Of a stretch of 41,254 nucleotides of DNA, positions 2,536-29,472 are shown in pieces (within the stretch, counting starts at the first letter, position 1; each line of letters begins with the position of its first letter). A program made the translations under genes and the position numbers. The notes below the pieces were generated by a model that was given only the letters and a program-made list of their open reading frames with translations, was not told the origin of the DNA and did not search any database. The stretch covers positions 1-41,254 of IMG/VR virus record IMGVR_UViG_3300000235_000008, one strand, 5' to 3'. The stretch comes from a virus.

Positions 2536-2967
2536 ATGACGATAGAACGATTTATACTTAGAGAAGAGGGATTTAAACCATCCCCTTATCTTTGTTCAGC
2601 AGGTATTCCAACGATAGGTTATGGTACAACAGTATATCCTAATGGAACTTCTGTGAAATTAACAGATAAAGAGATTACTAAAGAGTATGCCTTACAGATA
2701 TTCAAATTTAATTTAATAAAGTATGAAAAAGCAGTTGATAGGTATGTTACAAGTACATTAACTAAGAATCAAAAAATAGCTTTAGTTTCACTTTGCTATA
2801 ATATTGGAATTACAAACTTTAGAAATTCCACATTATTAAAATTGATTAATAAAGCAGAACATACACTAGCTTCACTAGAATTTAAAAAATGGGTTTATGC
2901 TGATGGAAAAATATCAAAAGGCTTAACTAGAAGAAGACTTAGAGAAAGTGAATTATACTTAAAATGA
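2536..2967 (+). CDS. Endolysin, T4-type lysozyme (GH24 muramidase)
   Basis: A 143-residue protein that would cleave the glycan strands of peptidoglycan at the end of infection. The GH24 catalytic triad is visible as E11, C20 and T26 in the segment EEGFKPSPYLCSAGIPTIGYG, matching the E-8aa-D/C-5aa-T spacing of T4 and P22-type lysozymes, with Cys in the Asp position. Further family landmarks are NQKIALVSLCYNIG (helix with conserved N and G) and the C-terminal GLTRRR segment. There is no signal peptide or SAR anchor, so export would need a holin. The next small gene starts inside its stop codon (ATGA). Confidence 0.92.
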   Translation: MTIERFILREEGFKPSPYLCSAGIPTIGYGTTVYPNGTSVKLTDKEITKEYALQIFKFNLIKYEKAVDRYVTSTLTKNQKIALVSLCYNIGITNFRNSTLLKLINKAEHTLASLEFKKWVYADGKISKGLTRRRLRESELYLK

Positions 2968-3107
2968 AACTAAAAATAAAGCATATTGATAATGTGTATA
3001 TTTGTACTATAATTAAAGAAAATGGAGATACTGCATATGGTATAGGAGTATCCAAAAAACAAGCATTAATAAACAGTAAAAGGAAATTAACATGGATAAA
3101 GCATTAG
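2964..3107 (+). CDS. Small hypothetical protein (47 aa)
   Basis: A short open frame beginning at the ATG that overlaps the lysozyme stop as ATGA, an arrangement typical of translational coupling, and ending at TAG 3105-3107 inside the start of the next gene. The product is basic and begins MKLKIKHIDNVYICTI, with no membrane segment. Nothing identifies its function; lysis-associated or simply cotranslated are both possible. Support for a real gene is the coupled start and that it fills an otherwise empty 125-base gap. Confidence 0.5.
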   Translation: MKLKIKHIDNVYICTIIKENGDTAYGIGVSKKQALINSKRKLTWIKH

Positions 3108-3355
3108 ATTATGTTAAAGATATATGGACTAATAAAATTATTTTAACCGTAAATAAAACATTAGATTGTTTTGGTGCTATATGGGATAGTAAGATTGTTA
3201 TAGTAATAGTTAAAATGCTATTATCTAGGTTGATTAGAAGTAAAACATCAGGTATAACTTTAGAAATAGCTGTAATGTTAATGGATTCAATAATAGTATC
3301 TAAAAGCAATAATATTATAGATATTGAGCCTAAATTCAAGGCTAAAGATGAATGA
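3092..3355 (+). CDS. Small hypothetical protein with hydrophobic helices
   Basis: An 87-residue protein with a good ribosome-binding site (AAAAGGAAATTAAC before ATG). Hydrophobic stretches at about residues 34-48 (KIVIVIVKMLLSRLI) and 54-69 (ITLEIAVMLMDSIIV) suggest membrane or amphipathic helices, and the C-terminus is charged (KFKAKDE). Its position directly between lysozyme and portal matches where N4-type phages keep lysis genes, so a holin or accessory lysis role is possible but unproven. It overlaps the portal start by eight bases. Confidence 0.45.
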   Translation: MDKALDYVKDIWTNKIILTVNKTLDCFGAIWDSKIVIVIVKMLLSRLIRSKTSGITLEIAVMLMDSIIVSKSNNIIDIEPKFKAKDE

Positions 3356-5462
3356 GTTATCTCCTGAAATAATAAATGTTATGCAACAGCAAAGTATGCC
3401 ATTAATGCAACCACCACCAATGATACAAAATAATGAAGAATGGGATGAATCAAATTCTTTAGAGAAGCAATGGAAAAATCCCCCTACCATAGCAGAACTA
3501 AAGAATGACCTAGAAGATGCAGATAGATATTTTAAAGCTACTGAATATTCTAGTATTCAAAAAAGAGCAGTTATCATAAGTGGTGGAGAACATATTCCTG
3601 AAAGAAAAGGATATTCAAACTTAAGACCAAAGACCGCTAAAAATTTATTAGGTTGGAGATATCCTGCTTTAACTGAACCTTTTTTTGTAGAAGATAATTT
3701 ATTCACAATAGACAGCAATACAACTAAGGATAAAGATTTAGCTTCAGAACATTCTACAATTCTGAATTATCAATTCAACAACCTGATAAATAAAAGATTT
3801 ACCATAGATAAACTAGGAATGCTAGGAAGCAAATATGGAACTATGATATCTAGGGTAGGTTGGTTATATGATGAAGATTTAGGAATAAACCAACCTGAAA
3901 TTAAAGTATGTAATGTAGGGGATATTCTAATAGACCCATCATGTGGAGATGATATTGATGATGCACAATATATTATTCATAAGCATATTACTACCTTTTC
4001 TAAACTAAAGAAATCAGGGTATAAAGACCTTGATAATATTTTAATGGATAATACTTTAGATGTTATAAATAGTGAGGGGAATATTGCAAAATGTACTTCG
4101 TGTTCTTATAGTAATGGTACATCTTATTTAAAAGACAAACCACGACAAAAAGTAGTAGTATATGAATATTGGGGTTATTGGGATGTTAATGATACAGGAA
4201 AAACTGAAGTAATAGTTGTTAAGTGGGTTGGTAATACTATTTTGAGTATGGATGTAAACCCTTTAGATAAGAATAAATTTCCTTTTGTGATTACTCCATA
4301 CATTCCATCAGATAATTCTGTATATGGAGAAAGTGATACAGATTATTTAAATGACAGTCAAAAGATAATTGGAGCAGTAACAAGAGGTATTATAGATACT
4401 TTAGGTAGAGGATTAGCAGGACAAACGGCTTATAAAAAGAATGCTTTGGATACTGTAAATAGAAAAAAAGCAGATAATGGAGAAGACTTTGAACTAAATA
4501 ATTCAATAAATAATCCTAAAGAAGCTATTTATCAATTCTCATTTCAAGATGTAGGAAGTACTCCTTTTGAGCAACTAGATAGAAGTAAAAAAGAAGCCCA
4601 AGAACTTACAGGTATTGTTCCTTTTGGAACAGGTAAAGATTCTACTATCTCAGCAAATTCTAATTTTTTTAATAAGAATACACCTATGAGTCCTACTGAA
4701 AAAAGAGAAATATCTCTTATCCGTAGAATAGCTTCACATTTAACAGATATTGCTAAAATAATTATAGAGTTGAATAATAAATATTTATCATCATATGAGA
4801 TATTTGCAATTTTAGATACAGAAGAGAGTGTGGTTCTACAAAATGATATTAAAAACAATCCAATATTAAATGTTAATATCAAAATAACTACTCCTGAAAT
4901 GAGGTTAAATAGAGCTAATAACTTAGCATTCCTACTGCAAACATCAGGGGGTAACTTAGATGAAAAAATACAGTTAGCTATGTATGCCGATTTTGCTAAG
5001 TATGGTGAGCTTCATGATACTTATGCTATGTTAAGAGACTATCAACCACAACCTAATCCAATAATGGAAGAAAGAGCTATGTTAGAGAATGAACTACTAA
5101 AAGCTCAAATAGCAAATGAAATGGCTAAAGCTGAGGAAAATAAGGTAGATATGCAATTAAAAGCAGCTAAAGCAAGATTCCTTGATTCTCAAAGTGATTT
5201 AAATGATGCTAAATTTATGGATAATATGCAAAACCCTAACAAAGATATAGAAGATAAATTAGCATTAGCTAGAGATAATCAACAACATCAAAGAGCTATG
5301 AAAGATTCTGATATAGCCCACCAACAACAACAGCAAGGTAAAAAACTAGAACAAGAGTCTAAAAAACAGGTAGTGGATAATCTATTTAAAGAAGAATTAG
5401 AAAATAGAGAGAGAGCTAAAGCAATACAAGAATCATTAAACACAGGGATAAAAGATGAATGA
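3348..5462 (+). CDS. Portal protein (N4 gp59 position)
   Basis: Forms the dodecameric DNA-entry ring of the capsid. I chose the ATG at 3348 (MNELSPEIINV, 704 residues), overlapping the previous gene, over an upstream TTG at 3324. Landmarks typical of large podoviral portals are the wing/clip core (LGSKYGTMISRVGWLYDED), VGDILIDPS, a D-D-A-Q-Y-I-I-H-K helix, and PFVITPYIPSDNSVYGES. The C-terminal 130 residues form a long charged Q/E/K-rich coiled coil (barrel helix). A CTSC pair at 249-252 is unusual. It lies directly upstream of the small gene, scaffold-like gene and capsid gene, the same order as N4 genes 59-56. Confidence 0.85.
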   Translation: MNELSPEIINVMQQQSMPLMQPPPMIQNNEEWDESNSLEKQWKNPPTIAELKNDLEDADRYFKATEYSSIQKRAVIISGGEHIPERKGYSNLRPKTAKNLLGWRYPALTEPFFVEDNLFTIDSNTTKDKDLASEHSTILNYQFNNLINKRFTIDKLGMLGSKYGTMISRVGWLYDEDLGINQPEIKVCNVGDILIDPSCGDDIDDAQYIIHKHITTFSKLKKSGYKDLDNILMDNTLDVINSEGNIAKCTSCSYSNGTSYLKDKPRQKVVVYEYWGYWDVNDTGKTEVIVVKWVGNTILSMDVNPLDKNKFPFVITPYIPSDNSVYGESDTDYLNDSQKIIGAVTRGIIDTLGRGLAGQTAYKKNALDTVNRKKADNGEDFELNNSINNPKEAIYQFSFQDVGSTPFEQLDRSKKEAQELTGIVPFGTGKDSTISANSNFFNKNTPMSPTEKREISLIRRIASHLTDIAKIIIELNNKYLSSYEIFAILDTEESVVLQNDIKNNPILNVNIKITTPEMRLNRANNLAFLLQTSGGNLDEKIQLAMYADFAKYGELHDTYAMLRDYQPQPNPIMEERAMLENELLKAQIANEMAKAEENKVDMQLKAAKARFLDSQSDLNDAKFMDNMQNPNKDIEDKLALARDNQQHQRAMKDSDIAHQQQQQGKKLEQESKKQVVDNLFKEELENRERAKAIQESLNTGIKDE

Positions 5463-16059: not shown

Positions 16060-19000
16060 ATGGCAGAAATCACAGAACTAATAACAGATACCCCTAACTT
16101 AGAATTTGATGATAGGCATCTTCAAGTACTAAAACCTGGGCAATCTTTTAAAGCTAATACCTATGAAACTTTACCTAATAGTAACGAATTATTAAGTATA
16201 GAAAATAAAGAATTACGACAGTACCTTTTAGAAAATGGAGTTAGTGAAGCAGAGTTAACTACCCTTAGAGATAAGGCAAGACTTAACTTTATAGATTATG
16301 AGAATAGGGTAGGTGGTACTCTTAATAATGCAGAAGGAATTGCTTCCATAGGGGGAAGTGGTTATTATACATACAAAGGTTCGTACACTAACCCAGCATT
16401 AATAAAAAAGCAAGAAAATCTTTTAAATGCTCTTGAACAAAAGAATGATAGTTTGGGATTAAAGGTTGCTAAATTATCCAAAGAGTATCAACTAAATAAA
16501 GAAGGAGCAAATAAGTATAAAGAGAAAGATACACTACTATATCCTGATGGTGTAGGAAGAGCAGTAAATACTGTTCTATCAGGGGCTGTTAAGCTAGGTG
16601 ATTCTACTTTGAGTACTTTTCTCCCTGATGCTTTATATGCTCAAACACCAACACAAAATATTGATAAATATTTTGGTAGAACTGAAGAAGTTAAACATGA
16701 CGATTATCAACTAAATGTTGCTACAACTAAACTTCTTGATGGGGATATTACAGGAGCTATTAGTTCAGGTACAGGTGCAGCATTAACTACTACAATGCAC
16801 TCATTACCTGATATTGCTTTAATAGGTACAGGAGTAGGAGCATTAACTAAAGTAGGAAGAGCTACACAAATACTAAAAGCTTACAAAGAGGGTAAGTTAT
16901 GGGCAACTTTAGGTATGGCTAATGAAGCTAAGAAAGTACTTGAAACAGCTACTATTGCTAACAAAGTAGCTACAACAGTAGCAAATAATGCAGGGTTACT
17001 AGTGTATGCTACAAAAGATACTGACAGAAAATTAGGTGAAAGACAAGCTAATAATGGCTATGAGAGTATCTCACCGTTAGAAAGAGGGTTGGTTTTTGCA
17101 GAATCTGTATTTTCAGGATATTTAGAAAAGTTTGCCTTTGATAAAGTATTAAGTCCTATGGACTTTAAAGGTATGCACGAACTATTTAATAGTGTACCTG
17201 CTAGTATGAAAGAGGGGTTACTTAAAGAAACACTAAAAACAAATGCTTTATTAGGAAAAGCTTTATTAGAAGTACCTAAAGCAGCAATAGTAGAGGGTGG
17301 ACAAGAAGCATTACAAACATACACAGAACTATTATCAACTAATGCAGGTACTAAAGTTGGTATGCCAACAGATGAAGAATTAAAATTTGAAATAGCTAAA
17401 GGTGCATTAACAGGTGCATTGGGTGGTGGTGCTATGAGATTTGGTGGAAGCCTTGTATCTCAAACATTAGATGGGTTAGATGCTACTGCTAGTAATATTG
17501 TAGGAGGTATAAAAAATGTATTTACTTCTAAAGATAATCAAGAGGATAATGATTTAAATGCTAGTAGCAATATAAACGAAGATATTCAACCTAGTAGTGA
17601 TAGTTATGCAGGGCTTAATAAATATGTTGTAGATGAAGTAGATACAGAGGGTAATAGTAATCAAAAAATAAGTTTACAAAGTATCTATATGCCTGAACAA
17701 GGTACAGAGTTATCTGCTAGAGTAAAATCAGTTGAAAGCATATTAAATGAAGTACATATGTCAGATATGCTTCCAACTGCTGAAGATTCTTTTGCAACTT
17801 TAACTTCTAGTTTAAAGAAAAATAAAGATATTCCTAGAAGTGAAAAACTAGCACAAGTTAATGATTTTATAGACAATACATTACCAATACTTAAAGGAAG
17901 TTCATATATCAATATAACAGATAGACTAAGAAAAGCTATCACAAACTTAACTAATGAGCCAAGTAGTGTAGATTCTATCACTTCTGTTGAGAGCCTTACA
18001 GATTTTAAAAATACAATAGAAAGTATTTATGCTAAAGAAAAAAAGGATATAAAATCACATTCTGAAGTAACAGAATCAGTTAATGTTATCAAAGAAGCTC
18101 TGCAAGAGTTAATAGAGAATGATAAAAAAATTAATAATGAAAATTCTTCTTTTACTAACATTGATACTAATAAATTTTTAACAAGAGCAGAGAGTATCGA
18201 CCGTGAAACATTTGATGATATCTATGGAAATATTGATAATGGGGATAATACTAATACTAATAGTGAAGATGATGAAGTAGCTCCTAGCTTTGATAAGACA
18301 AAGAGTACTATTAAAGAAGATAAATCAAAAGGAAAAAATAAATTTAAATCTTTGCTAGACACTGCTAAAGATATAGTCTATGGAAGTAATGATAAATCTT
18401 TTAAAGGAACTAGAGAGTATTTAAAAGAAGCTAAATTATACAAAGCATTAAAAACTCCTAATAATTCTGACATTAAAAAATTTAATACTACTACAAAAGA
18501 ATTACATAATTTTAGAAATAAAATGAATGAAAAATTAAAGATGTATCAAGCATTGCAAAGTAAAGCTACTGATACAAATAAAATTATTGCTTTTAAATAT
18601 GGTTATGAAAATAATTTAGCTAATATTACCGAAGAAAAAGAAGTAGAAAATACTAAAGAAAATATAGCACAGTTAAGAGAAGAGGGGTATAACTATATTT
18701 TACCTAAGTATAAAAATGGTAATGGTAGCCAAGCCCTTATTGATAGAGTCTCTCGTGAAATAAGCTACTTGGATGGTTTTATAAAGAGATTTAGTGAAGT
18801 TAATAATGTAGAAGTAAAAGATACTAAAGATGAAGTAGAAGATACCATTGCTGAAAGTAAGGTTGATAATAAGGAAGATACTAAAGATACTAAAGATACT
18901 AAAGATACTAAAGATACTAAAGATACTAAAGATACTTCCAATGAGCAAAAAATTATTAAAGATACTAAAGATGAAGTAAAAGATACTAAAGATGAAGTAA

Positions 19001-22000
19001 AAGATACTAAAGATGAAGTAAAAGATACTAAAGATGAAGTAAATGTAAATTCTGAAGATACTAAAGATGAAGTAAATGTAAATTCTGAAGATACTAAAGA
19101 TGAAGTAAAAGATAAAAAAAGTGTTGAAGAGTATTTACTAGAAGCTAGTTCTATTCCTGAAAAAAATAGATACATAGAAAAAGTATCAAAAGGTATTAAA
19201 GATACTTTTGGTTTAATAGCAAGTAAAATACCTCTTAATATCGATATTATACAACCATCTCCCTATATCACAAAGTATGCTTCTAGTCTTGCTAATTACA
19301 CTATACATTCAGGCGGAGCTGTTGGTGCAGATTCCATATGGGGAGCTATTGGTTCAGCATTAGGAGCTAAAGTAAATCATTATTATGCTGATACTAAAAC
19401 ACCTAATGGTAATGTAAAGATAACACAAGAGCAGTATAATGAGGGTTGGTTTAAAGCTAAAGAAGCACATACTAATTTAGGGAAAGATTTTAAAAATAAA
19501 AAACCTGTTAATTTTAGCACATTTGATACAACGACTAAAGAATTTCAAGGGCTTCAAGCAAGGAATTATCAACAAATTAAAAATAGTAGTATCGTATTCG
19601 CAGTAGGAAGCCTTACAAAGCAATATGGGACAAACAGAATAATTGCTAGTGGTGGAACAGCATATGCAATAGAAATGGCTAGTATTGATAATAAACCTAT
19701 ATATTTCTATAATCAAGATACAGTAAATGGTTTTGATATTGGTTGGTACTATAAAGAGGGAGTAGATAGTAGTACATTCATTAAAATAAACTATACTCCA
19801 ACTATCCCTAAAGATAATACTAATTTTGCAGGGATAGGAATTAGGAAAATAACACCTAATGGTGTTCAAGCTATTATTGATGTGTTTGAAAATTCTGTAA
19901 TAGCAGAACCTAAAGATATTATTACAAAAATAGATAAAGAAATCGCTCTTAGTGGATTCATTACAAAAGCATTATTACACAAACCAACAGAATTTAATTT
20001 TACAGAAGAGGATGTCAAAGAATATAATAAACCAACCCTAGTATCCAATACTAATGACTTTAAATACTTAGCAGAAGTATTAGATACAGTAGCATTAAAG
20101 GTGTTATTTGCAAAGGATAATGATAAAACTTCTATTACTGATAACTCCATATATGATTTTATAGTACAAGAATTTAAAGATAAAAATTTACTAGATAAAG
20201 ATATTAGAGATATCACCATAAATAAAATAGCTGAACTAATAAGTAATAATAAATCTTTAGCTTCATTCTTAAGTAACAGTGGAAATAATTCTGTAAGAGA
20301 GGGTATAGAACAGCATTTTAATAAATTTACAACAGACCAAACAGATTTCTTACCTATACTTCTATTCAAAGCTATAAAAAAATATTATGATGATAAAATA
20401 CTTGAAAAGAATGAAGAAGTTGCTAAAGCAGAAAGAGTTAAAAATATTTTTAATAATTATGCTAACAATTCAAATACTGTAAGTAATAACCAACTACAAA
20501 TAGAAACACCTATCCTTAATGCTATTACAACTTATCTAAATAATAGAATATTAGATAGATTAAAAGATATTTATCCAAGTAAAAGTATTAATATCTTAAA
20601 AACAAATGATATAGAATATAATGAAAAAACTACTATTGAAGTAAAAGGTAAAGAGGTAATTGTATCTATCCCTAAGTTTGAGTTAGATATTAATAAAGAT
20701 ATGAAAGATTCTTTTATATCTTTATATAATAATTTTTCAGAATATTATACCCCACTAATGACAAAATTATTAGTAACAACAGATACAAAAAGTATTGAAA
20801 ATAAAGAAAAAATACTTAAAGCAAATATTGCTAGAAAAAATATAGTAATGAGTGATGAACAGATACATAAAACTGTAATTGATGAGATGGTTAAAAGATT
20901 AGTAATTCCATTAACCAACCCTCTATTCATTGTCAATAAACTTGCTGATGGTAATATCCATGCTTACTTAGCTAGTAATAGTAAAGCTAGTTTAGAGATG
21001 AATAATCAGAATAAAGAATCATCCTTGGTAAGTCAAAAACTATATACTTTATTAGCAAAGAATAATGTCACTAAAGAAATCCCCTATACAGAGTATGAAA
21101 AAATAATAAAAAATGAAAGACAAACTACTTATGGGGTGGTTAAACCAAAAGGTGTACTAAACTATTCAAAATTGCTTAATTACAATATAATAGTCTTTAA
21201 ACAAAATTATTCAAAAGCACTTGAATTAGCTAATGAAGTAAATATTCCAATGTTATTAGCTAATAATAGTATTGTAGAAGACTTTGAAAAGATAGGATAT
21301 ACAGCATATAAAATAGTTGGTGAAAACAAAACATACACTACACTAGTTGTACCTCCTAAAAATAGTCCTTTATTAGTTGCTAAAAAAGAAATAGCTATTA
21401 ATATATTTGAAGATTCTTTAAATAGTAAAGCAGTTAAATCAACACTTAAAAACACAGATACTAAGTTGCTTCAAAAAGATTCAGAATCAATTGTTAGTGA
21501 TATAGCAGATGATGTAATAGCTAAGAAAATAAATAATAAAAATGATAAATTAAATAGTCCATTAGAAAAATTATTCTCAACAATAGAAAGTATAAAATTA
21601 GTTGATAGTGTACAGCTAAAAAACTCTGATAAAGTAGAAATGACTAAATCTACTATGCTACTAGTTGATGATAAAAATATTTTAAAACCTGAATTTGCTA
21701 AAGTTGTTAAATATGTAACCTCTAAGTGGTTGTTTGAAAATGGTTCAAAAACTGTTTATAATGAAGATAAAGCATTAAAAAGAATGCTTGGAATATCAGA
21801 AGATGTAAAATTAAGTTACTCTAAATCAACAAATTTTTTTAGAAAAATAGGTCATAGACAACAGTATATGATAGACAATATTTCAAATGAGATAAATAAA
21901 ATAATTAAATTATCTCCTGTGCTACAAGAGGAATTAGGTAGCAATACAGATATTAGTGATTTAAGAATAGTAGATGAATTAGTAAGTACTTTAGCATTGA

Positions 22001-25000
22001 TAGCTATACATTCGATGAGTGTATCAAATATGCTTACTGAAACAGCTTTAAAAACAGGTGAAGTAGCAGGGCATATCATAAATATAAATGGCAGTAGTGA
22101 ATTTACAGAACTACGACCAACTAATATTGAAAATGCAGAATCTTTACAATACTTTTATACTATAAATGATTTAAGAAAAACTAATACTCAATTATGGAAT
22201 GCTAAACAAGCAATTATAGAATTAAAAGAATTTAAAAATACAGCTGATTTATTAATGGGCGATAAAGACTTTGATACTATTGTTTATACTGAACCACCTA
22301 CCACAAATACTTCTATACTCCACTCACCTAGTAATGTTAAAGCTAGTAATAAAATAGCTAAAGCTATTACAAAACTAAATAATACTAAGTATGTAGTATC
22401 AGATGCTTTATCCTCTTTACATGAAATATTTAAAGATACAGGAGGATTAAAATATTTACTTGGCTATACATTAGAGAGTGATATGATTAAGATGACAGAA
22501 GAGAGCAGTAAAGGTAAAAATATTGAGATAGATAGAACAATAGATAGTATTAGAGAATATGCTAAATTAAAAAATATAGGGATATATTTTAATCACAGAG
22601 CAACAGTAACTAAAAGAATGATACAGATGGGTAATGGTGGTAATACTCCACAAGCTAATAAGTTCTTAAGAAATTTCTTAGATGTAGATAATTCTAATGT
22701 CAATATCCCATTTAATTATGAAAAATCACATTATGAGTTTAAAGAAGCAATAGCACAAGCACATGGTGCTAAGCTTAAAAAAATGTATAAGAACGAAATA
22801 GAAGAGTCTTTTGGTACTTATATAGCAGAGTTTGAAAGAGATACTTATAATGATATAGATAGGTTGGTTAATAACAAAGAGCTATCTAAAGAGGATAAAA
22901 TTGATTTACTTATTAAGCTACGAGACTTAATGGAAGATATGGGTGAAGAAACATACTCACTTAGAAGCTTATTTGAAATGTATAATTATATAAATGCTAA
23001 AAATAATAACACACTTGAAGATTATTTAAAGGATACAAAATTTACAATAGAACTAGATAGTACAACCAATGGGTTAGCAATACAAACAATGATGTATTTT
23101 TCTACTAAGTTTTTTAGTATTGCTAAAGGACAATTAGAAAGATTAGGAATATTTCTAAAAAATGGTTCTAATCATATAAGTACCGTAGCAATGTTTAAAA
23201 ATTCAAATGATATTTATCAACATATTATAAGTAAAGCTTTAGAATTCATGAATAAGAATAATACTATATCTAAAGAAGTAAATGAATTTCTAGTAGAGGT
23301 ATATGGAGAATACACAGATGGTAATAAAGGCATAGTAGTGTCAAGTAAGTATAGAGCTTTAGCTAAATTAATAATCATGCCTATACAGTATGGTGCTTCA
23401 GTTAAAGCTTCATTATTATCTCTATCCAAAGGAATGTATTATGATAGCATCAATATGTTAGCAGATACAAGTGTACCATTAGCTAAACGAATAAAAATAG
23501 CTAAAATATTGTTAACTATGTCAGGCAGAAAAAGAGAAGCTAATACTTTAAGTGAGTTAGTAAATGGTATTAAAACATTTGAATTTACACCTCAAGAACA
23601 AAATAAAATAATTGAATCTATTACAGACAGTTTTTTACCAGGTATAAAACATATGTATGATTCAGAATTAGCTATGATAGGGGAATCAAGAAAAGTAGTA
23701 ACAGATTATTTATCTCCTTTACTGACAATTTTTTCTGATGAATTAAAAACTAGACTAGAATTTGAAGTAAGTAAATACACTATACAAACAAAAGAAACAG
23801 ATATAGATAAAATAATAGCTGAAAAGAAAAAATACATCCCAACAGCACTTATTAAAAAAGTACTAGATGAGATGTTAGAAGATGGTTGGTTTCCACAAGT
23901 AGAAACAGCAGATGGAAATATAAATCTTATTGAACCTGAAATGATATACCGTAATTTAGGACAGGGGATGGTTATATCACCTACTATGCCAATATCTACA
24001 AATATTGTAACAGGAAGTAATAATCAAAAAACTATGAGAAGTACTAATATGTTAGGTGTTGGTATGCTTCCCTATGGGATTAATTCAACAGTAGCAGGTG
24101 TACATAGCATAGATGCTGTAATAGCTTCAATAACTATGTTAAATACAGAGTTAAGTATGAACTATATATTTGATGCGTTCATGCTTAAATTAGGTAATAG
24201 TAGTGAAATTGCTAAAGATTATAATGGTAATTTATTTAATATTGCTACTACATATAATTTAGTTACTAGTATTACAAAAGCTATTGATAAAGTACTGAAT
24301 ATGAGTTTTAATACTAATGAAGAATCTCATAGAACATTAAAAGAGAATACTTATAATAAACATTTGGAAAGTATTGAAGGTAGAAAGGTTTTAACTAGCG
24401 AACTATTAGCAGTAAATAATGTTCCTAGTAGTGATGAGACAAGTACTTATAAAGTAAGCCATAAAAATTATGATTTGGATACAAGTTTAGTACATAATAC
24501 AAATCCATTAAATATTAAATTATTAGATAAAAAATCACTAATTAATGCTTATGAAGAAACAGTATATAAGAAAGTTAATGATATTGAAACAATAGAAGAA
24601 ACTACTAGTTATAGAGGTAATTTAGCAGATACCTTTAATATATTTTCTCTTTATAATAACCCTGCCGAAGAATATTATATGTTTGAATATGATGCAAATG
24701 AATTAAATAAATATGAAAAAGGAGACATAGTATCAAACATACCAAATAATGGAGAAGCTTTAACAAGGTACTATAAAATTATAGAAGTAGGTACTATAAA
24801 TTATCAAGAATTTAAATCTTATTATGAGGATATAAAAAATAAGATGTTAAAAGCTTTAACTAAAAATGGTAGAAATGTAATAGATTCATATCTTACAAAA
24901 GTATCTACTTTATTTTACAATGATAGTATAGATGCTACGGATTCAGGTATGTTTGGTACTCTAAGGGGATTTACTACTTATTCTAACCCAAGTAATACTA

Positions 25001-28000
25001 AAAGAATAACATCTTATAAAATACAATTATTAGATGAATATTCTTCTGAAGAAATAATTTCTTCAGAGTATATAGATTACCTGAGTAAAAAATATTCTTA
25101 TTCTAACAAAGATTTAAAAGTAAAAAATAATTATGAAAGACTTAATATTAATAATAAATTATACCTAGATAAAAATCATTTTATAGAAAATAATAAGTAT
25201 GGTTTTGATAGAAAAATAAATAATTATTCGGCAATAGTAAAAGCATTTAATTCAGAAAAGCTTTATGATATAATAAAGGTAAGAGTTTCACTATCACAAA
25301 TACAAAAAAATAAATTAGATAGTAATATTAGTGCATTGAATGCAATTTGGGATAAAGAATATGCTAATGTACATGGAATTCCAACAGATATACAAACAAT
25401 AGAATTTGCTAGTATTGATAATAATAATAATACTCTTAATAAAACATATACAGGAGAAGCTTACTATGAATTATTATCTTTAACTGAAGAAAAATTACTA
25501 GAAGGTATTCCTGAATTACTCACTGAACACTACATAATAGCAAGACCAAAAGAAGATAAAAAAGCAACTGCTTTATTAATAGATAATGGAATGCTATTAA
25601 GTGATAATGCAGTATATCATCCTAAATTAGACTTAACTAAAGGTTTTTCTTCCCTTATTAAACAACATTTGCTCATAACCAACCCCAATACAGAGCTATT
25701 GTATATTCAAGAATCAAATACTTACATTACTTCTGATAAGATTAAATTACTAGCTTTGTACAGAAATTTAATCAACAATAGAAATGAAATTATTGATGAG
25801 CATGGATTAAATACTGTCTCTTTAAACTCATTAAACTCATTGAATAATTTAAGTAAAGATGTTAAGCCTATAATATCTACACAAGAAAATAGTAATGCTG
25901 ACAATACCTATTCTAATATGGATATTAAAAATAATAAGAATTACCATACTATTAAAAAAGTATTTGATAAAGTAATAATTGATAATAGTACCATTAAAGA
26001 AGTTTTAAAGTACCTACAAAGCAAAACTAATGTAGGAGATACAAATCTAGCACTAAAATCATTTAATGAGCTTGTAGTACCTTTTATAGATAAGTATAGT
26101 GGTATCTTATCAGTAGAAGAAACAAATGAAGCATTAACAAGTGGTAGTGTGATACATAAAGTAGATATTGATGAGATAAATATTAAAGTAAGTAATGCAA
26201 CTCCTATCAATAGTAATGAGCAATCCCCTGTACAAGTATATGTACATGAGCTTATACATACCATAGCTGATAGAGCTATTGACTTACCTGCTAATACTTT
26301 TATTCGTTCACAACTATTTAAATTATATACTTTAAGTAGAACTAATGCTACACCTGAAATATTTTTATCCAATGTAGAAGACATTGAATCAGCTAAAGCA
26401 TTAGCAATAGCTCAATACAATACAATTTATAATAATAGTAAGCCATCACATGGACTGAATGAGTTTATAACTTATTCATTAACCAACCCACAATTTGCTG
26501 AGTATTTATCTTCTTTGTCAGATATTTCAGCACCTAATGGTCTTGTCTCTAAAATAGTTTACTATACTAAACAGTTACTTGATTCCTTAGTAAGACGGAT
26601 ACTCGGATACTCTAAAAAAGATAAGGATATTCAAAAAGAAGTTCATACTTTGGTTGCACAACTTAATACAATCACTAAAAGTAAAATAGATATTAAGTAC
26701 CTAGCAGCTATGTACAGCTATTTAGATATGGCAGATAGTAAGATAGCTGAATATAAAGCAAGAGTACTCACTGATAAAATAATGGCAAAAGTAGATACTA
26801 AGAATGAATCTCCTACATGGTCTCTTATTAAACTAATGTATAACTATGGTATTGCATTACTAGCTAAAGAAGATGAAGGTAACAATCCTTGGATTAAAGC
26901 TTATCAAAAAGAAGTTAAAGTTAGTGTTAATAACAGCTATATTAATCATGCTATAAGAGATAGTGTCGGAGTAACTGATAAAGATGCAACTATGTCTAGT
27001 ATGCTCCTAGATACAGCTAAAGGAAACTTAATATACCTGTATGATGAACTTACTAATAAGTCTAAAGATATTCTTGACTATAAACTTATGATAAGAAAGT
27101 TTAAAAATAATATTGATAGAACAAGAGAAGCAATAGAGCTATACTATAAGAAAGAGATAGAACTCATTACAAAAGATTTAGATGATAATGAGCTAAACTT
27201 ACTTACTGATATTATCATGTATGCTGATACAAAATCATTGAATGATATAAAAGTTATAAATGATACTATTAAAATAGATAATTATCTTAGCTTTATAAAA
27301 GATGATAATCAGATAGATTCTGTTATAGATATCTTATCTAAAGAGCAAGACATAAATATTAAAACTGAAAAAATTGCAGAAAATGCTTCATTCATACTCA
27401 ATGGGAGTATTAGTGGTAAAGATTATAATGATAATTCTTTTAAAAGTAAAAGCTTTAGTATTAATGGATTAACTAAAAAGGATATTGGAAGAAGTGTCAT
27501 AACCACCCTCTTAGCATTGAAACAGATACCTCTTAATACTAGAAACAATCTAAAAATATCTTCAACTAATTTTGATAAGTTAATTAATACATCTTTATTG
27601 TATGAGAATGAATTATACGCTTTAAATAGAACTAACACTACTGTTGATAAAGGTGCTAAAGGTAAATACTATGCTAGACAATTTCAAGGACATAAGTTTA
27701 TATACTCCTTGAAAAGCAATACTGATAAGATAAAACAATTAAACAAGTCTAATAAATTTGCAGTTAATAAACACATTAAAACTGTTCCTAATCCATTTGA
27801 ACCTAGTGACCCTATTGAAGTTTATTTAGTACCATATGATGAAACATCCTTCATTCAAGGTATTCTAACCTATGGTAATAAAGATAAATCTAATTCACTT
27901 GGAAGTATATTTAGACAACTATATCCATCTAATGAGGGGATACCTCTTGAAGCATTTACAATAGCTAAAGATAAGGCTAAAAATTTAAGTGAGTTTTCCC

Positions 28001-29472
28001 CTGTGTATAGTAGTAATTATAAAGATATGAGAGTACAAGATTATGAATTGAAAGCATTTACACATAACGAATTAAATGAAATGTTTGGTAAGTCTAAAAA
28101 AATTACAGATGTACTTCCTGAAGCATTTGGTATGTTAAAAGAGATTAAACAATCTTCTGAGAACAATATAAAAGCACTTGAAACAGTAATTAAAGATTCT
28201 TTAAAAAATAAAAATGATAAAGATTATATAGCTGTAAATTTCAAAGAAGATAGATTTAGTTATCTATGGGCTTTATTAACTCCTGAAGTTAAAAACTATT
28301 TAACATCTAAAAATAAAACTACAATTTATATAAAAAAAGAAGTGTTTAGATATTTATTTGGAATGGGTAAAGGATTTAGTATCACAAGAGTAATAGGATT
28401 ACCTGATAAATTTAAATCAACATTAGGATTTGCTGAAGAAGTATATACTAGTTTTATTAAGTTAGTTAAGCATGATATAACCATAAAAACTCCTAGTGTA
28501 TTCATGAATAATATTACTAGTAATTTAAACTTATTGTGGATTAAAGGTGTACCAATGGAATACTTAATGGAGTCAATTCCTATAATAGAGGATTACCTAA
28601 GTAAGACTAAAAGATTAAGAATACTTCAATCTAAAAGATATATTATAGGTAATGATAGTTCAGTAGTAAATGAATACAATACTGTTAAGCATGAGTTAGA
28701 AAAGAATCCTTTGCATAATATGGTAGAACAAGGATTAATTAATTTTATTACTGAAGATAGTAGTATAGGGGATGTACATAAAGATAAAAATATAATTACT
28801 AAAAAGTTTAGTAAGCAAATAGAAAAAGCTAGTAGCTATAAAGCAATTAAAGAGCTGTATGCGTTAGATGGTTCTGAATCCTTAAGAGTTATGCAATCCT
28901 TTGTGCAATATGGAGATGTAATGGCTAGATATGCTTTACAAAAGCATTTATCAATACAAGTAGATAACAGTAAAGTAGATAAGCTAACTATTAATAAAAT
29001 TAATGTTTTATTAGGTAAAGATGGTAAAAAACTAGCACATGGGATAACTATTGAACAATTTAATAAACAAATACCACAGATGATACTAGACAACAGTACG
29101 AATTATGGGTTGGTTACAACTTTAAATTCTTTACATAATAAAGTTGATATCTATATGAATGGTATAAAAGAAGATATAAAGAATGAAGTATTAAGAACAT
29201 TTGTCACTTATGATTTACCTGTAACCAAGACAGCAGAGTTTTTAGATAGATATGGTTTAGCTTTATTTCATAAATTTGCTATTAGAATACAAAGTATTAT
29301 ATTCTCATTATTCAGTGAAGCTCCTGCTAGAACACTTGTAAGTACTATGCTTCAAAACTTAATAGGTAATATATCAGATGTTACTGATTCACAGTTTGAT
29401 ATCTTACCTAATAGTATGAATGCACTAGATGGAATGGAAGTATTGCTTACACCACCTGTATTGGAGTTTTAA
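16060..29472 (+). CDS. Giant virion-associated RNA polymerase with SLOG-like and zincin-like domains (N4 gp50 homologue)
   Basis: A 4,470-residue protein (N4 gp50 has 3,500), ribosome-binding site AAAGGATGG. Domains seen: hydrophobic/Gly-rich N-terminal segments (about 228-265, 405-470, EGGQEALQ and GALTGALGGGA); DTK tandem linker (940-1016); SLOG-like domain (about 1075-1275, HSGGAVGADSIW at 1083-1094, ASGGTA at 1196-1201, FAGIGIRK); single-subunit RNA polymerase core (about 1760-2870): T-x-x-K-R (T2182-R2186), motif A D2333 (ELDSTTNGL), motif B R2432-xxx-K2436 and Y2444-G, motif C H2682-xx-D2685 and D2705 (YIFDAF). Spacings of the catalytic residues (147, 103, 8, 261) closely follow N4 mini-vRNAP (135, 111, 8, 273, from memory). 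A HELIH zincin-type motif is at 3396-3400 with E3468 a possible third ligand. No cysteine found. Packaged and ejected to transcribe early genes (established for N4, inferred here). Confidence 0.9.
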   Translation: MAEITELITDTPNLEFDDRHLQVLKPGQSFKANTYETLPNSNELLSIENKELRQYLLENGVSEAELTTLRDKARLNFIDYENRVGGTLNNAEGIASIGGSGYYTYKGSYTNPALIKKQENLLNALEQKNDSLGLKVAKLSKEYQLNKEGANKYKEKDTLLYPDGVGRAVNTVLSGAVKLGDSTLSTFLPDALYAQTPTQNIDKYFGRTEEVKHDDYQLNVATTKLLDGDITGAISSGTGAALTTTMHSLPDIALIGTGVGALTKVGRATQILKAYKEGKLWATLGMANEAKKVLETATIANKVATTVANNAGLLVYATKDTDRKLGERQANNGYESISPLERGLVFAESVFSGYLEKFAFDKVLSPMDFKGMHELFNSVPASMKEGLLKETLKTNALLGKALLEVPKAAIVEGGQEALQTYTELLSTNAGTKVGMPTDEELKFEIAKGALTGALGGGAMRFGGSLVSQTLDGLDATASNIVGGIKNVFTSKDNQEDNDLNASSNINEDIQPSSDSYAGLNKYVVDEVDTEGNSNQKISLQSIYMPEQGTELSARVKSVESILNEVHMSDMLPTAEDSFATLTSSLKKNKDIPRSEKLAQVNDFIDNTLPILKGSSYINITDRLRKAITNLTNEPSSVDSITSVESLTDFKNTIESIYAKEKKDIKSHSEVTESVNVIKEALQELIENDKKINNENSSFTNIDTNKFLTRAESIDRETFDDIYGNIDNGDNTNTNSEDDEVAPSFDKTKSTIKEDKSKGKNKFKSLLDTAKDIVYGSNDKSFKGTREYLKEAKLYKALKTPNNSDIKKFNTTTKELHNFRNKMNEKLKMYQALQSKATDTNKIIAFKYGYENNLANITEEKEVENTKENIAQLREEGYNYILPKYKNGNGSQALIDRVSREISYLDGFIKRFSEVNNVEVKDTKDEVEDTIAESKVDNKEDTKDTKDTKDTKDTKDTKDTSNEQKIIKDTKDEVKDTKDEVKDTKDEVKDTKDEVNVNSEDTKDEVNVNSEDTKDEVKDKKSVEEYLLEASSIPEKNRYIEKVSKGIKDTFGLIASKIPLNIDIIQPSPYITKYASSLANYTIHSGGAVGADSIWGAIGSALGAKVNHYYADTKTPNGNVKITQEQYNEGWFKAKEAHTNLGKDFKNKKPVNFSTFDTTTKEFQGLQARNYQQIKNSSIVFAVGSLTKQYGTNRIIASGGTAYAIEMASIDNKPIYFYNQDTVNGFDIGWYYKEGVDSSTFIKINYTPTIPKDNTNFAGIGIRKITPNGVQAIIDVFENSVIAEPKDIITKIDKEIALSGFITKALLHKPTEFNFTEEDVKEYNKPTLVSNTNDFKYLAEVLDTVALKVLFAKDNDKTSITDNSIYDFIVQEFKDKNLLDKDIRDITINKIAELISNNKSLASFLSNSGNNSVREGIEQHFNKFTTDQTDFLPILLFKAIKKYYDDKILEKNEEVAKAERVKNIFNNYANNSNTVSNNQLQIETPILNAITTYLNNRILDRLKDIYPSKSINILKTNDIEYNEKTTIEVKGKEVIVSIPKFELDINKDMKDSFISLYNNFSEYYTPLMTKLLVTTDTKSIENKEKILKANIARKNIVMSDEQIHKTVIDEMVKRLVIPLTNPLFIVNKLADGNIHAYLASNSKASLEMNNQNKESSLVSQKLYTLLAKNNVTKEIPYTEYEKIIKNERQTTYGVVKPKGVLNYSKLLNYNIIVFKQNYSKALELANEVNIPMLLANNSIVEDFEKIGYTAYKIVGENKTYTTLVVPPKNSPLLVAKKEIAINIFEDSLNSKAVKSTLKNTDTKLLQKDSESIVSDIADDVIAKKINNKNDKLNSPLEKLFSTIESIKLVDSVQLKNSDKVEMTKSTMLLVDDKNILKPEFAKVVKYVTSKWLFENGSKTVYNEDKALKRMLGISEDVKLSYSKSTNFFRKIGHRQQYMIDNISNEINKIIKLSPVLQEELGSNTDISDLRIVDELVSTLALIAIHSMSVSNMLTETALKTGEVAGHIININGSSEFTELRPTNIENAESLQYFYTINDLRKTNTQLWNAKQAIIELKEFKNTADLLMGDKDFDTIVYTEPPTTNTSILHSPSNVKASNKIAKAITKLNNTKYVVSDALSSLHEIFKDTGGLKYLLGYTLESDMIKMTEESSKGKNIEIDRTIDSIREYAKLKNIGIYFNHRATVTKRMIQMGNGGNTPQANKFLRNFLDVDNSNVNIPFNYEKSHYEFKEAIAQAHGAKLKKMYKNEIEESFGTYIAEFERDTYNDIDRLVNNKELSKEDKIDLLIKLRDLMEDMGEETYSLRSLFEMYNYINAKNNNTLEDYLKDTKFTIELDSTTNGLAIQTMMYFSTKFFSIAKGQLERLGIFLKNGSNHISTVAMFKNSNDIYQHIISKALEFMNKNNTISKEVNEFLVEVYGEYTDGNKGIVVSSKYRALAKLIIMPIQYGASVKASLLSLSKGMYYDSINMLADTSVPLAKRIKIAKILLTMSGRKREANTLSELVNGIKTFEFTPQEQNKIIESITDSFLPGIKHMYDSELAMIGESRKVVTDYLSPLLTIFSDELKTRLEFEVSKYTIQTKETDIDKIIAEKKKYIPTALIKKVLDEMLEDGWFPQVETADGNINLIEPEMIYRNLGQGMVISPTMPISTNIVTGSNNQKTMRSTNMLGVGMLPYGINSTVAGVHSIDAVIASITMLNTELSMNYIFDAFMLKLGNSSEIAKDYNGNLFNIATTYNLVTSITKAIDKVLNMSFNTNEESHRTLKENTYNKHLESIEGRKVLTSELLAVNNVPSSDETSTYKVSHKNYDLDTSLVHNTNPLNIKLLDKKSLINAYEETVYKKVNDIETIEETTSYRGNLADTFNIFSLYNNPAEEYYMFEYDANELNKYEKGDIVSNIPNNGEALTRYYKIIEVGTINYQEFKSYYEDIKNKMLKALTKNGRNVIDSYLTKVSTLFYNDSIDATDSGMFGTLRGFTTYSNPSNTKRITSYKIQLLDEYSSEEIISSEYIDYLSKKYSYSNKDLKVKNNYERLNINNKLYLDKNHFIENNKYGFDRKINNYSAIVKAFNSEKLYDIIKVRVSLSQIQKNKLDSNISALNAIWDKEYANVHGIPTDIQTIEFASIDNNNNTLNKTYTGEAYYELLSLTEEKLLEGIPELLTEHYIIARPKEDKKATALLIDNGMLLSDNAVYHPKLDLTKGFSSLIKQHLLITNPNTELLYIQESNTYITSDKIKLLALYRNLINNRNEIIDEHGLNTVSLNSLNSLNNLSKDVKPIISTQENSNADNTYSNMDIKNNKNYHTIKKVFDKVIIDNSTIKEVLKYLQSKTNVGDTNLALKSFNELVVPFIDKYSGILSVEETNEALTSGSVIHKVDIDEINIKVSNATPINSNEQSPVQVYVHELIHTIADRAIDLPANTFIRSQLFKLYTLSRTNATPEIFLSNVEDIESAKALAIAQYNTIYNNSKPSHGLNEFITYSLTNPQFAEYLSSLSDISAPNGLVSKIVYYTKQLLDSLVRRILGYSKKDKDIQKEVHTLVAQLNTITKSKIDIKYLAAMYSYLDMADSKIAEYKARVLTDKIMAKVDTKNESPTWSLIKLMYNYGIALLAKEDEGNNPWIKAYQKEVKVSVNNSYINHAIRDSVGVTDKDATMSSMLLDTAKGNLIYLYDELTNKSKDILDYKLMIRKFKNNIDRTREAIELYYKKEIELITKDLDDNELNLLTDIIMYADTKSLNDIKVINDTIKIDNYLSFIKDDNQIDSVIDILSKEQDINIKTEKIAENASFILNGSISGKDYNDNSFKSKSFSINGLTKKDIGRSVITTLLALKQIPLNTRNNLKISSTNFDKLINTSLLYENELYALNRTNTTVDKGAKGKYYARQFQGHKFIYSLKSNTDKIKQLNKSNKFAVNKHIKTVPNPFEPSDPIEVYLVPYDETSFIQGILTYGNKDKSNSLGSIFRQLYPSNEGIPLEAFTIAKDKAKNLSEFSPVYSSNYKDMRVQDYELKAFTHNELNEMFGKSKKITDVLPEAFGMLKEIKQSSENNIKALETVIKDSLKNKNDKDYIAVNFKEDRFSYLWALLTPEVKNYLTSKNKTTIYIKKEVFRYLFGMGKGFSITRVIGLPDKFKSTLGFAEEVYTSFIKLVKHDITIKTPSVFMNNITSNLNLLWIKGVPMEYLMESIPIIEDYLSKTKRLRILQSKRYIIGNDSSVVNEYNTVKHELEKNPLHNMVEQGLINFITEDSSIGDVHKDKNIITKKFSKQIEKASSYKAIKELYALDGSESLRVMQSFVQYGDVMARYALQKHLSIQVDNSKVDKLTINKINVLLGKDGKKLAHGITIEQFNKQIPQMILDNSTNYGLVTTLNSLHNKVDIYMNGIKEDIKNEVLRTFVTYDLPVTKTAEFLDRYGLALFHKFAIRIQSIIFSLFSEAPARTLVSTMLQNLIGNISDVTDSQFDILPNSMNALDGMEVLLTPPVLEF
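18877..19107 (+). repeat. Nested in-frame tandem repeats (DTK / DTKDEV linker)
   Basis: Six 9-base units GATACTAAA (18877-18930) encode Asp-Thr-Lys; after a short break come four 21-base units (18961-19041, DTKDEVK) and two 33-base units (19042-19107, NVNSEDTKDEV). All share the DTKDEV core, and a degenerate copy precedes them from about 18811. They encode residues 940-1016 of the giant polymerase, a charged, probably extended linker between the N-terminal part and the SLOG-like domain. Not a CRISPR array: units abut without spacers and keep frame. Confidence 0.9.

Follow-up and report, generated by a model that had tools for sequence, protein, structure and literature searches.

An N4-like virion RNA polymerase with a predicted zincin-type endopeptidase in the second of two tandem modules, the copy whose site coliphage N4 has lost

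The window analyzed here is a 41,254-nucleotide stretch of viral DNA (positions 1 to 41,254 of IMG/VR record IMGVR_UViG_3300000235_000008) that encodes a giant RNA polymerase (Table 1). This open reading frame is confirmed as an N4-like virion RNA polymerase (vRNAP), with residues D2333 of motif A, K2436 of motif B and D2685 of motif C lining up with N4 and 24 other phage vRNAPs in our alignment. The neighborhood is also N4-like, with portal and major head protein genes upstream of the vRNAP and an N4-type replication set on the minus strand comprising SSB, Sak4 (Sak4-like protein), exonuclease, helicase and primase genes. The virus record spans only about 41 kb, so the genome is probably incomplete. 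By analogy with N4, the polymerase is probably packaged and injected into the host with the genome. At 4470 residues it is larger than the reference vRNAPs, which range from 2842 to 3820 residues (PMC10654107), and single-sequence queries of IMG/VR with the zincin, the polymerase and the region at residues 2850-3290 found no close relatives of the window. Motif A (23050-23073) reads ELDSTTNG and deviates from ExDGxxxG, as it does in the IMG/VR relatives L045 and L050. ExDGxxxG is a screening filter for N4-like viruses and not a defining trait (PMC10654107), and a filter based on it would miss the phage of the window along with relatives like these two.

Table 1. Features of the vRNAP gene in the window. 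Modules 1 and 2 are the first and second of the tandem zincin modules described in the text.
Feature	Residues	Position in window	Strand	Basis
N4-like virion RNA polymerase (vRNAP), 4470 aa		16060..29472	+	PHROG 2206 E 8e-112; T7-type motifs A/B/C
KDTKDEV tandem repeats, low-complexity linker from N-terminal domain to polymerase		18811..19109	+	Tandem Repeats Finder
DprA/SLOG-like domain	1076-1219	19285..19716	+	PHROG 768 E 7e-7
Single-subunit (T7-like) RNA polymerase domain	1790-2819	21427..24516	+	Best PHROG 2206 stretch; motifs A, B, C
~440-residue region without detectable relatives	2850-3290	24607..25929	+	Directly before zincin, where other vRNAPs have module 1
Predicted zincin metallopeptidase module 2, active site intact	3291-3534	25930..26661	+	HMM bits; tree; AlphaFold2 model; structural matches
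HELIH, predicted zinc ligands H3396, H3400 and general base E3397	3396-3400	26245..26259	+	Invariant in alignment A3; model helix 121-137
E3468, predicted third zinc ligand in NEF....TN motif	3468	26461..26463	+	Invariant in alignment A3; model helix 193-206
C-terminal region, remainder of N4 C2	3535-4470	26662..29469	+	PHROG 2206 second match E 5e-31; high occupancy in full-length alignment

Several parts of the protein surround the polymerase and the zincin. The KDTKDEV repeats occupy the position of the N4 linker between the N-terminal domain and the polymerase, a low-complexity segment of about 100 residues at 907-1006 (PMC12633501). The DprA/SLOG-like domain is inserted between the N-terminal part of the vRNAP and the polymerase. 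BLAST matched it to residues 1143-1247 of the Alteromonas phage A5 vRNAP (E 1e-7), the sole SLOG-like match among the vRNAPs compared in this way, and the domain is possibly a nucleotide-sensing or DNA-binding cargo. The region at residues 2850-3290 adds to the unusual size of the protein, and searches of Pfam, PHROGs, IMG/VR and the vRNAP set gave no convincing match to it. Its AlphaFold2 model from the single sequence is uninformative (pLDDT 30), and neither HMM nor BLAST searches matched a hidden zincin module 1 within it.

The C-terminal half of the polymerase carries a HELIH motif (H3396, E3397, H3400) followed about 70 residues later by E3468, as the original prediction had noted, and our analysis confirms both elements. 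The sole HExxH in the protein is VYVHELIHTIADRA, and the downstream stretch NEFITYSLTNPQF carries E3468, 72 residues past H3396. The codons of the helix residues lie at 26245-26247 (H3396), 26248-26250 (E3397) and 26257-26259 (H3400), and an antisense open reading frame at 25941-26384 overlaps the motif. Conservation in related phages, which had been put forward as a check, was borne out, with HExxH present downstream of the polymerase in 26/26 vRNAPs compared. When the zincin region was searched with tblastn, schitovirus vRNAPs were matched weakly at 20-30% identity, and the first eight vRNAPs fetched all keep HExxH at the homologous position, followed by EF.....TN. A scan of IMG/VR gave 24 loci, 23 of which were aligned with the window (alignment A3, 24 sequences); the scan patterns were built on the zincin motifs themselves, so the sampling of A3 is biased. 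The invariant columns of A3 are H127, E128, H131, A180, E199 and F200, with H127/E128/H131/E199 corresponding to H3396/E3397/H3400/E3468 of the window. The aligned sequences are only about 20% identical to the window, yet these four residues are invariant in all 24. Pfam gave no match above the cut-off for the whole protein or for the zincin domain, and NCBIfam returned nothing for the domain. No curated family model reached its cut-off for the window zincin, whose likeness to M34 is at the level of the fold only.

Our AlphaFold2 model of the domain, built on A3, is confident (pLDDT 80.9, pTM 0.79). It places in order a helix (60-74), three strands (79-86, 92-97 and 102-109), the HExxH helix (121-137) and a helix (193-206) that carries E199. 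The model thereby contains the three-stranded sheet with one N-terminal and two C-terminal helices that is described as the zincin core (Iyer et al. 2017, PMC5512222). The two expected helices carry H3396/H3400 and E3468. Convergence of the ligands, which the original prediction had named as a test, was examined indirectly through co-variation of the site residues across the family, and this shows that they are kept or lost together. In VIA-align the best match of the model was residues 2374-2591 of the N4 vRNAP (9pnt, Z 9.3), and the protease domain of anthrax lethal factor (Z 6.9) and PPEP-3 (Z 5.5) were also matched. Foldseek alone found weak PDB matches, headed by the N4 vRNAP (best E 0.019), and the A3 profile searched against the PDB found N4 2394-2592 with an E of 3e-11. 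In BFVD other vRNAPs ranked highest; further down came proteins named 'large polyvalent protein associated' and an endopeptidase annotated as M34. Conservation, model, fold matches and literature (Iyer et al., PMC5512222) together back the predicted HExxH...E zincin assignment and its proposed link to polyvalent proteins.

Both the model and the A3 profile align to N4 residues 2374-2592, away from the HELVH of N4 at 2228. Profiles show a tandem pair of zincin modules in N4-like vRNAPs. N4 module 1 (~2112-2376) is predicted to be active and holds the HELVH in the C1 domain, and N4 module 2 (~2371-2603) reads F, Q, T and T at the four site positions, as expected of a lost site. By these profiles and the model, the dead zincin module of N4 is residues ~2374-2600, at the beginning of its C2 region. 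With HMMs built without the window, the window domain scored 60 bits against module 2 and 27 bits against module 1. Profile-profile comparison gave an E of 5e-33 between degenerate and active module 2, and of 2e-16 between active module 2 and module 1. In a maximum-likelihood tree modules 1 and 2 separate (99/98) and all degenerate module 2 copies form one clade (97/95), so that a single loss is the simplest account of the dead site in these copies. The window branch is long and its exact position within module 2 is unsure. The zincin of the window is module 2, the copy whose site N4 has lost.

To survey the integrity of the site, 130 proteins were examined, near-copies included, with site counts taken from HMM-fitted alignments. 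Module 1 is active and module 2 degenerate in 88 of these; 28, the window among them, have an active module 2 and no module 1; seven have two active modules, and one has an active module 1 with module 2 not found. The other six are without a complete site, namely four cut contigs and the loci L112 and L132. Across the 220 modules in which all four positions are aligned, the His pair and the distal Glu are kept in 131 and neither is kept in 89, with no mixed cases. Both modules are intact in Vibrio phages phi 1, PG11 and 1.238.B, and in L042 and L050, two of the seven proteins with two active modules, the domain resembling module 1 is found a long way upstream of module 2. An unbiased survey, in which loci were retrieved by the polymerase core alone and blind to the zincin, gave 80 loci (59 clusters at 70% identity), 76 of which extend far enough downstream. 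The H-E-H...E of module 1 is intact in 74/76, the two exceptions being L112 and L132, and no intact site was present among the module 2 copies of this survey. Nearly every related polymerase keeps at least one intact zincin module.

Extra HExxH motifs occur upstream of the polymerase in L026 (Roseovarius phage 1, residue 1291), L132 (1012), L030 (1177), L042 (1483) and L050 (1070), and in L042 and L050 the motif falls in a domain that scores as zincin module 1-like. In L132, where the module 1 site is lost, the upstream motif is HELMH, and its region is collinear with one in Roseovarius phage 1 that holds a second HExxH. The 5′-truncated contig L112 has a clean in-frame deletion of about 290 residues spanning module 1 (open reading frame residues ~1062-1087), and its module 2 is dead. 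This locus represents a natural test of zincin dispensability; having lost module 1 without an active module 2, it indicates that some phages may do without the peptidase.

We consider it quite likely that an ancestor with two tandem zincin modules gave rise to lineages that kept one or the other active, and occasionally both, with selection acting on the delivered protease site and not on a particular module. The zincin of the window would be the second of these inherited modules. In the N4 lineage module 1 would have stayed active and module 2 would have lost its zinc site, most simply in a single event, leaving the start of C2 as a structural pseudo-zincin. The lineage of the window would have kept the opposite copy, with module 1 now absent or unrecognizable. 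That nearly every lineage has retained one complete protease site, in either of two homologous modules, is an argument for proteolysis during early infection by a widespread phage family.

On this basis we propose that residues ~3291-3534, located C-terminally in the virion RNA polymerase, would form a zinc-dependent zincin-type endopeptidase; the polymerase itself would be packaged and ejected into the host. H3396, H3400 and E3468 would bind zinc and E3397 would activate water. We infer zinc binding and proteolysis by the domain, and selection appears to maintain catalysis because the water-activating Glu, dispensable for zinc binding alone, is kept in every intact module. With less certainty, the enzyme may act after ejection, and more likely in trans, on a host protein or on a partner such as an ejectosome protein, than by constitutive self-cleavage. 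Action in trans is slightly favored over a fixed cut in cis because the intact site is kept while its position in the chain varies between lineages. Against this reading, the papers cited here report no activity for any vRNAP zincin, and no cleavage is seen in the N4 vRNAP. As a whole, a catalytically selected endopeptidase that is delivered with the polymerase and acts after ejection is the best explanation, and in our judgment a reasonably probable one.

The same domain could instead process its own chain, cutting the vRNAP after refolding in the host, for example at linkers, and so releasing the polymerase from an inhibitory C-terminal domain. Autoproteolysis has been proposed for polyvalent proteins, and P1 DdrB is processed before packaging (Iyer et al., PMC5512222). 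In addition, the C-terminal domain of N4 inhibits transcription and is joined via a 23-residue flexible linker (PMC12633501), and the zincin module lies near the polymerase in the chain. However, full-length N4 vRNAP has been isolated intact and transcribes (PMC12633501), and a fixed cut in cis would not predict an intact module that lies at module 1, at module 2 or upstream of the polymerase depending on the lineage; we regard such processing as rather unlikely. The interpretation in the original prediction is supported in part, for its zincin and polyvalent assignment; maturation of the polymerase, one of the functions it suggested, is disfavored as an automatic step. The N4 vRNAP is packaged unprocessed at full length (PMC5512222) and remains undegraded when purified (PMC12633501), so folding by itself does not trigger self-cleavage. 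By analogy, constitutive self-cleavage is unlikely in the window. An envelope-opening role was not supported by any evidence in our analysis, and a phage lysozyme is encoded separately in the window, at 2536-2967.

Less likely still is a structural or regulatory module that binds zinc, holds the C-terminal region on the polymerase and cuts nothing. N4 C1 does contact the polymerase through a 725 Å2 interface with a salt-bridge clasp (PMC12633501), and N4 keeps the zincin fold of module 2 without a zinc site, which points to a structural use of the fold as such. Against a module of this kind stand the retention of the water-activating Glu next to the three ligands wherever a module is intact, and the all-or-none loss of the site, which is expected for an enzyme. 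A chance HExxH without zincin homology was rejected as scarcely credible. A chain of 4470 residues allows some probability of such a motif, but only 0.046 occurrences are expected from the protein's own composition, and the motif is invariant in distant vRNAPs within a homologous domain.

The proposed delivered endopeptidase belongs to a domain type that is known in N4-like vRNAPs. Zincin peptidases (zincin-like MPTase) were described there by Iyer et al. in 2017 (PMC5512222) and restated for Cbunavirus in a 2021 review (PMC8472413). A 2025 cryo-EM preprint reported the HExxH in the N4 C1 domain and raised the question of what the large C-terminal domain does in N4-type vRNAPs (PMC12633501). 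In the text of these three papers we found neither the tandem pair of zincin modules, nor a dead second zincin in N4, nor the alternating use of modules. The zincin-like MPTase of polyvalent proteins shares with the window the HExxH helix, the later Glu helix, the three-stranded core and a location C-terminal to an N4-like polymerase (PMC5512222). The MPTase domain of N4 was given as residues 2130-2448 (PMC5512222), a range whose HExxH is that of module 1, whereas the intact copy in the window is module 2. The M34-type zincins, namely PPEP and the protease domain of anthrax lethal factor, resemble the window domain in fold, but are about 10% identical to it and have no other parts in common.

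The vRNAPs of Vibrio, Alteromonas and Pseudoalteromonas schitoviruses (BUCT194, pVco-5, pVa5, pYD6-A and others) share with the window an active module 2 with EF.....TN. Unlike the window protein, they are ~3070-3650 residues long and are without a relative of its 440-residue region. Coliphage N4 gp50 (PDB 9pnr, 9pnt; PMC12633501) is the same kind of polymerase, has its zincins in the same tandem place after the polymerase and provides the best structural match. It differs in that its predicted active site is the HELVH of module 1, in which E2229 can be named as the exact residue for mutation, and its module 2 site is degenerate. Although C2 of N4 was reported without a structural homologue (PMC12633501), its first ~220 residues match the zincin of the window, and the two-module reading would explain them as a dead zincin.
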